Shown here piece by piece: positions 2,254-8,741 of a stretch of DNA of 27,966 nt. A model generated the notes under the pieces. That model was given only the letters and a program-made list of their open reading frames with translations, had not been told where the DNA came from and searched no databases. Within the stretch, counting starts at the first letter, position 1; each line of letters begins with the position of its first letter. A program made the position numbers and the translations under genes. Source of the stretch: a virus; IMG/VR virus record IMGVR_UViG_3300034104_000729, positions 1 to 27,966 of that record, one strand, 5' to 3'.

Positions 2254-2279
2254 ATCAGCAATTCAATGAAGGGTTGCAC

Positions 2280-2293: not shown

Positions 2294-2584
2294 ATGACAA
2301 ACTGGAACAATTTAAAAACTATCATTGAATTAGAAATTCAAAAATCTGAAATTACAAACAAGGAAGTAATTAAATTAATATTTAATCTTGAAAGAAAATT
2401 AAATACTTGCAGAAACTTCCTTATAAAAAATACTTGGTGTTCAATGTGTTATAATTTAAAAGCTCACGATGACGCCAGAACTATTCTCTACGATTTACAA
2501 GAAAAATATCCAAATGATTATAATAAATATTGTGATGCAAATGGATATTCAAGATATATGACTATTGGTTGTATGCTATCATAA
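2294..2584 (+). CDS. Hypothetical protein, 96 aa, Cys-containing
   Basis: I chose ATG 2294; an in-frame TTG at 2285 is less likely and lies inside the repeated leader element. The product is helical at the N-terminus (NLKTIIELEIQKSEITNKEV) and has several Cys in the middle and end (TCRNF, WCSMCYNL, KYCDAN, TIGCML), with a CxxC pair that could bind metal. A KYPNDYNKY stretch recalls small phage proteins nearby (KTKYPDCYYD in the 2923 gene). Family unrecognised. Its stop codon overlaps the 5' strand of the RNA structure that follows, so ribosomes finishing this gene would disturb that fold. Confidence 0.6.
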   Translation: MTNWNNLKTIIELEIQKSEITNKEVIKLIFNLERKLNTCRNFLIKNTWCSMCYNLKAHDDARTILYDLQEKYPNDYNKYCDANGYSRYMTIGCMLS

Positions 2585-2664
2585 CATTCCTGTTCCTGCA
2601 AGTCAGGAATCTGCGCCTCGCTTGATCAGTCAAGCGGGGATTTGGCAGTACCGGGATGTTCCGG
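2583..2664 (+). ncRNA. Three-way-junction structured RNA candidate
   Basis: The gap between two genes folds into a compact element. P1 pairs 2583-2590 (AACATTCC) with 2653-2660 (GGGATGTT), 8 bp with one wobble. P2 pairs 2593-2598 (TTCCTG) with 2604-2609 (CAGGAA) around loop CAAGT. P3 pairs 2611-2614 with 2645-2648 (CTGC/GCAG) and continues, after an internal loop, as 2616-2625 with 2630-2639, 10 bp with one wobble, loop TCAG. It is visibly richer in GC than its surroundings. CCGG 2651-2654 can instead pair with CCGG 2661-2664, excluding P1. P2 loop bases 2597-2603 can pair with 2671-2677 in the leader of the next gene. A cis-regulator or small RNA is likely; I recognise no known class, and it lacks tRNA features. 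Confidence 0.55.
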
Positions 2665-2667
2665 ATT

Positions 2668-2677
2668 AAAACTTGCA
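2668..2677 (+). repeat. AAAACTTGCA leader element, copy 2
   Basis: Second copy of the ten-base element, two bases before ATG 2680. Its ACTTGCA core is complementary to the P2 loop region (2597-2603) of the preceding RNA structure, which would allow a pseudoknot that covers the translation start. Confidence 0.4.
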
Positions 2678-8606: not shown

Positions 8607-8741
8607 ACTTTTTAAAAATTCAACCCTACTACCTTTTGCTAAAAGTAGTAAGGTTAGGAGCAAAAAATGAGTAAAAAAAGGGTAAAATCCTTACATTATG
8701 TTAAATAGAAACCAAAAAATAATGAATAATTAGTAATTAAA

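Follow-up and report, generated by a model that had tools for sequence, protein, structure and literature searches.

A Structured RNA in a Small Phage Operon That Looks Like a Previously Undescribed Translation Switch

1. Introduction

To our knowledge, little is known about structured RNAs by which Bacteroidota and their phages control translation. Bacteroidota initiate translation without Shine-Dalgarno pairing. Among described elements, the preQ1 and SAM-II riboswitches and the ribosomal-protein leaders contain a loop that can form a pseudoknot next to the start codon, an integron gene cassette is composed of an ORF followed by the folded attC site, and the C4 RNA makes use of two separate loop-target pairs, termed a′ and b′. 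The C4 RNA of phages P1 and P7 is a folded RNA located within the operon it regulates, and its loops are complementary to the initiation regions of that operon (PMC8198154, PMC12197685); the difference in specificity between P1 and P7 is credited to Citron and Schuster (1990), as cited in PMC8198154 and PMC12197685. In F. johnsoniae, structure close to the start codon is described as tuning initiation (PMC6847099).

2. The Operon and Its Setting

The window, that is, the whole stretch of DNA analysed, is the 27,966-base phage record IMGVR_UViG_3300034104_000729 of IMG/VR, which includes genes for a terminase, a portal protein, an HK97-type capsid protein, a RecE-like exonuclease, and a VapE-like primase. 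The element under study is located in the early region, where several small plus-strand ORFs follow one another downstream of a Bacteroidota-type promoter; the phage group carrying it is uncultured and probably infects Bacteroidota. The −7 element of the promoter, TATATTTG (positions 2246–2253), matches the Bacteroidota consensus TAnnTTTG (PMC6847099), drives the small operon, and is found ahead of the boxed leader in nearly all homologues. All features of the operon lie on the plus strand. The leader is followed by an upstream box, ACTTGC (2283–2288), 5 nt before ATG 2294, by a variable "cargo" ORF of 96 amino acids (2294–2584) with its TAA stop (2582–2584), by the element with its helices P1 to P4, by a downstream box, again ACTTGC (2671–2676), 3 nt before ATG 2680, and by a small ORF of 51 amino acids (2680–2835). 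A search for tRNA and tmRNA genes found none. On the minus strand, at 8621–8656, a long terminator-like inverted repeat of 16 pairs, followed by T-rich sequence, separates the primase gene from the ORFs that come next.

3. Comparison with Described RNAs and Elements

Over the whole window, none of the covariance models of Rfam 15 gave a match at the gathering threshold. At permissive thresholds, nothing usable was obtained. The model of C4 (RF01695) did not match the element up to E = 10, nor was a C4 match obtained in the divergent phage L225 up to E = 5; a weak match of c4-a1b1 (RF03163) over the element, with 9.2 bits and E = 7.2, is insignificant. Like C4, the element is an RNA of a phage operon whose loop is complementary to initiation regions of the same operon, and its co-changed loop and box specificities recall the difference between P1 and P7. 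It differs from C4 in having one conserved loop-box pair instead of two, the contact between P1 and the P4 loop being internal, in its fold, in its position between genes right after a stop codon, and in the lack of a covariance-model match; C4 itself is a processed stable RNA repressing in trans, and processing and repression are putative features of the element. With the preQ1, SAM-II, and ribosomal-protein leaders it shares a loop that can form a pseudoknot beside a start codon, but it has neither an Rfam match nor a constant regulated gene, it has an extra box before the preceding gene, and some of its copies are devoid of a downstream box. The succession of promoter, short core, exchangeable ORF, and folded element directly after the stop resembles an integron cassette; however, the direct repeats are not obligatory, so that cores are not found on both sides throughout, and the element displays wobble pairs of the RNA strand as well as loop-box co-variation. 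Judged by its sequence, it is a predicted operon-encoded antisense-type regulatory RNA that is C4-like in logic, is not a C4 member, and constitutes a new RNA family. It looks like a previously undescribed translation switch, unlike anything in the Rfam library.

4. Homologues and Distribution

The downstream protein, the primase, and DNA patterns served as queries for homologues and led to about 31 distinct full-length copies in other phage contigs, together with two divergent cases, G431 (L204/L223) and L225; searches of whole records returned one confident copy per record and two in L225. One copy (L143) comes from a MAG with the label Chitinophaga pinensis; the contig concerned may be of phage origin and have been binned with the MAG. 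The element is absent from all 395 further genomes that were sampled in the phylum of this MAG (G001 phylum), and it was not found in about fifty loci of phages with a primase about 40% identical. Two weak matches in a second bacterial genome sample were interpreted as a terminator and as a fortuitous hairpin, and pattern scans with loose spacing gave mostly chance matches (L052–L067, L103–L108, L206–L222). Among isolated phages, no similar DNA was found; the nearest portal proteins, with about 28% identity, are those of Cellulophaga and Flavobacterium phages, and the two of these phages that were examined are without the element.

5. Fold of the RNA Element

The original prediction, made from the window sequence, described a three-stem junction, and its quoted sequences and coordinates are all correct. 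P1 had been drawn as 8 bp formed by AACATTCC (2583–2590) and GGGATGTT (2653–2660) and overlapping the stop TAA at 2582–2584. This overlap is present, whereas only a 4-bp core of the stem is retained in homologues: CATT (or TATT) is paired with RATG in 31 of 31 copies, and in the window the 5′ strand CATT (2585–2588) can pair with GATG (2655–2658), which lies in the loop of P4. P2 is formed by TTCCTG (2593–2598) and CAGGAA (2604–2609), exactly as proposed; the hairpin (2593–2609) is supported by covariation, with compensatory T-A/A-T/G-C exchanges at pair 5, and presents the anti-box loop GCAAGT (2598–2603), which is complementary to both ACTTGC boxes. P3 (2611–2648) had been taken as one stem, 2611–2625 with 2630–2648; it holds as a hairpin, but actually consists of two stacked helices, namely, a proximal helix CTGC/GCAG, in full CTGC(C)/GGCAG, and a distal hairpin of 9-10 bp (2616–2639), with an ATTT bulge between them. 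Compensatory changes are seen in both helices, since double changes in the wider alignment affect 7 of the 9 distal pairs and 2 of the 5 proximal ones, and the distal stems of different copies are unrelated in sequence. The bases between P3 and P4 are conserved, as is the P3 bulge.

P4 is the hairpin CCGG-(GATGTT)-CCGG (2651–2664). Its two strands, 2651–2654 and 2661–2664, had been recognised, but as a competing hairpin that excludes P1, and this part of the prediction is not borne out. All four pairs of P4 show compensatory change, and its stem is CCGG/CCGG, ACTGG/CCAGT, TACAGGGC/GTTCTGTA, TACAGAGC/GTTCTGTG, or TATAAGAC/GTTTTATA in the copies, always with a loop of 6 nt. Being a conserved helix, P4 is not a rare alternative to P1; because the P1 core CATT pairs with RATG within the 6-nt P4 loop, the two need not exclude each other, and P1 can form as a putative pseudoknot on P4. 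Two-sided co-variation of this contact beyond the 4-bp core was looked for among the 31 copies and not found. The ATG inside the P4 loop was ruled out as a true start because its spacing to the gene ATG keeps no constant frame among the copies.

Taken alone, the single-sequence fold is modest evidence (−38.6 versus −28.9 kcal/mol for shuffles; z = −2.7; 2 of 200 shuffles equally good), and it is the homologues that decide. Covariation in homologues, which the original prediction had suggested as a check, was found. In the 31 distinct copies, 95.4% of the pair cells are standard pairs, and 11 of 24 pairs are changed on both sides; the covariation score of this alignment was reached by 0 of 500 shuffles, and the signal collapses when pairing partners are slid as a control. 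With the divergent copies included, two-sided changes are seen in 17 of 24 pairs; given the mosaic nature of the copies and the small number of independent events behind them, these counts overstate independence, and a sounder argument is provided by how many different stem sequences occur. The alignments derive from models built here; two rows of the R1 seed had been slightly edited by hand, while the counts were made on unedited sequences. Outside two mis-registered columns, 30 G·U cells stand against 1 A·C cell, which suggests that the element acts as the sense RNA strand. This confirms, as far as comparative sequence data go, that the element is a real structured RNA.

A hairpin built like P4 is also found in the leader. 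In the window it reads GCAATTC-(AATGAA)-GGGTTGC (2258–2277), a stem with a 6-nt loop of the type AATNNA, and its stems are changed yet kept in homologues, with replacements such as TGTC/GACA and CGTTATC/GGTAACG. Leader hairpins before boxed ORFs (window 2258–2277; L225 about 8679–8698) differ in their stems, while the loop always has 6 nt; the loops are mostly AATNNA and the closing pair is mostly C-G, as in P4. Such a 6-nt-loop hairpin is a possible candidate for a protein-binding site.

6. Anti-Box Loop and Start-Site Boxes

The main-group P2 loop, GCAAGT, is complementary to the ACTTGC box found 3–5 nt before the next ATG. The original prediction had noted the pair in the window, TGCAAGT (2597–2603) against ACTTGCA (2671–2677), two bases 5′ of ATG 2680, and had read it as a loop that can pair with the start region of the next gene; the sequence is as quoted, and the reading is supported by loop-box co-variation from L225. 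The second box at 2283–2288, before ATG 2294 of the upstream ORF, had been missed. This box, AAAACTTGCAAATCATG, is usual among the copies and stands behind the AATNNA-loop hairpin of P4 build. When 18 whole records were inspected, AAACTTGC-N2-6-ATG was present in 14/14 records with the element and in 0/4 without it, and the backward pattern, used as a control, gave zero matches; the boxes are confined to records with the element. The original prediction had held that homologous phages lacking the element with the flanking genes intact would speak against it. Such phages exist (L008, L022, L023, L031, L038), but they are also without ACTTGC boxes, and this linked pattern of presence and absence supports a function. 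The proposal of a cis-regulatory RNA of an unrecognised class is upheld as well, in the sense of a sense-strand RNA of no known class and without a usable Rfam match; as a whole, the earlier interpretation is partly supported.

A box can be lost singly with the loop retained. G431 (L204/L223) has kept the loop and the upstream box only, P4, the downstream box, and CATT being lost, while L143 and L087 (L076 type) have only the downstream box. Both in G431 and in the second copy of L225, CATT is replaced by AATT and P4 is absent. In L075 (819–1261), L078, L080, and L096, two boxed ORFs are arranged in tandem before one element, and one anti-box faces three boxes. ACTTGCA/TGCAAGT occurs 15 times in the window, whereas 5.8 occurrences are expected (0 of 100 shuffles). 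The surplus consists mostly of TGCAAGT within genes, on their coding strand; plus-strand TGCAAGT is found, for instance, at 2103, 3827, 4750, 5161, 6900, 19006, 23378, 24628, and 26699. This excess could be due to codon usage or to decoys.

Within the main group, loop and box are both invariant, and all copies may go back to a recent common origin with extensive recombination, so that few independent events are represented. Co-variation of loop and box is seen in one divergent phage, L225, which has no early-region protein detectably in common with the window. Two copies of the element bracket two small ORFs in this phage. The second copy (E2) has the loop GCTAAGT, and the boxes of L225 are ACTTAGC and CTTAGC; the loop of the first copy (E1), GCTAATC, matches over 5 nt only (GCTAA/TTAGC). 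Of 56 ORFs of at least 40 amino acids, only these two are preceded by CTTAGC within 14 nt, and CTTAGC-N2-6-ATG has only these two plus-strand matches in the 43.8-kb record. Duplexes between matched loops and boxes are predicted at −9.0 to −13.2 kcal/mol, as opposed to −5.4 to −5.6 kcal/mol for crossed ones. As in the main group, the anti-box is placed directly after a stop codon. The concerted change of loop and box in L225 is the best evidence that the two would pair with each other.

7. Gene Slots and Fixed Geometry

Among 33 distinct contexts, there are 29 in which the upstream stop begins 3 or 4 nt 5′ of CATTCC, despite at least 20 unrelated ORF families in this slot, and the ATG is found 3–5 nt 3′ of the downstream box across 8 different and unrelated downstream families. 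With so many families at fixed geometry, the RNA is not tied to one gene. In L143, the element is a leader right behind the promoter, without an upstream ORF. Where relatives are devoid of element and boxes, cargo is missing as well, and a short plain leader stands before the same downstream genes, and halves of the element are shuffled among genomes. The slot is hypervariable (window 2294–2584 and L002–L143), at least 20 unrelated small ORFs being exchanged in it exactly from ATG to stop; possibly, these are early anti-host or anti-defence genes. Those of the ORF families that were compared with Pfam and PHROG, among them the window cargo ORF, scanned against PHROGs as the full 96-aa protein, gave no informative match, and only one PHROG of unknown function was hit. 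A coding check gave a third-position excess in several families, which, resting on few independent pairs, is supportive only.

8. Proposed Mechanism and Rival Explanations

The element would be a sense-strand regulatory RNA of a small polycistronic phage operon, composed of two modules. An anti-box module, consisting of P2 with the loop GCAAGT and of P3, would begin right after the stop of the first ORF; an initiation module, consisting of the P4 hairpin and the ACTTGC box, would be placed right before the next ATG, with a leader version preceding the first ORF. By pairing of the anti-box loop with the boxes of one or several start sites, on its own mRNA or, were it excised, on other copies, the nucleotides just 5′ of AUG would be covered, where structure lowers initiation in these bacteria without Shine-Dalgarno pairing. 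Since the 6-7 paired nucleotides would end 3–5 nt before AUG, a block of initiation is the simplest outcome; we infer the direction of the effect from this placement, and loop-box pairing would probably repress or balance the boxed ORFs. During termination at the upstream stop, CATT and the base of P2 would be hidden under the ribosome, and, because the anti-box starts at the preceding stop, such a ribosome should keep the anti-box unfolded; in this way, the boxes could be unmasked or masked again through translation of the first ORF. What counts against this explanation is the shortness of the pairing, 6-7 bp, and the local folding, which predicts that box and loop are partly paired elsewhere; also, the stop codon adjoining the element could follow from the compactness of phage genomes alone.

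The main rival, which we consider unlikely, is an activating role, in which pairing would bridge stop and start, promote re-initiation or re-loading by bringing them close, and raise translation. The distances from stop to fold (3-4 nt) and from box to ATG (3–5 nt), which are fixed in nearly all contexts, would suit such a bridge, and so would the position of the L225 anti-box right after a stop; however, the L143 element follows a promoter and has no upstream ORF to terminate, and a paired box would lie where structure normally hinders initiation (PMC6847099). The same exact exchange of at least 20 unrelated ORFs between boxed leader and element could mark a recombination boundary, with the box as direct-repeat core, the element as attC-like end for cargo swapping, and any RNA role secondary. 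The missing cargo of relatives without element and boxes and the shuffled element halves are in line with this, but one direct repeat is absent in G431, L225-E2, L143, and L087 (L076 type), the G·U pairs fit a sense RNA strand, and a concerted loop-box change would be unnecessary, all of which makes such a boundary highly improbable.

Conservation of the P3-P4 spacer bases and of the P3 bulge would be expected of a metabolite riboswitch whose fold senses a small molecule and whose loop-box pseudoknot hides the next start codon, and pseudoknots onto the start region are common in translational riboswitches. This reading is improbable, given that no Rfam match was obtained, that the flanking genes vary freely and are without metabolic annotation, and that neither the second box, ahead of the upstream ORF, nor the existence of copies devoid of a downstream box (G431, L225-E2) would be expected. 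Least probable of all is that the box merely serves initiation as a preferred sequence, or binds a protein, and is complementary to the P2 loop by coincidence; invariance of both partners in the main group would allow for it, as would the location of the box in an A-rich initiation region beside an AATNNA-loop hairpin that could bind protein, but in L225 loop and boxes have changed together, and boxes are found only in records with the element.

Going beyond repression or balancing by loop-box pairing, it is tentatively conceivable, if somewhat doubtful, that one structured RNA with an exchangeable box/anti-box address of 6-7 nt (ACTTGC/GCAAGT, CTTAGC/GCTAAGT) governs every boxed ORF and represents a new class of phage operon RNA, which would fold behind the terminating ribosome, switch several starts in cis, and perhaps act in trans by silencing related phages on their arrival. 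A compact RNA family that is supported by covariation and finds its start sites through a short exchangeable code would constitute a testable case of RNA-based translation control without Shine-Dalgarno pairing. For this phage group, the element would be a possible immunity determinant, and for Bacteroidota it may serve as a ready part for the control of gene expression.
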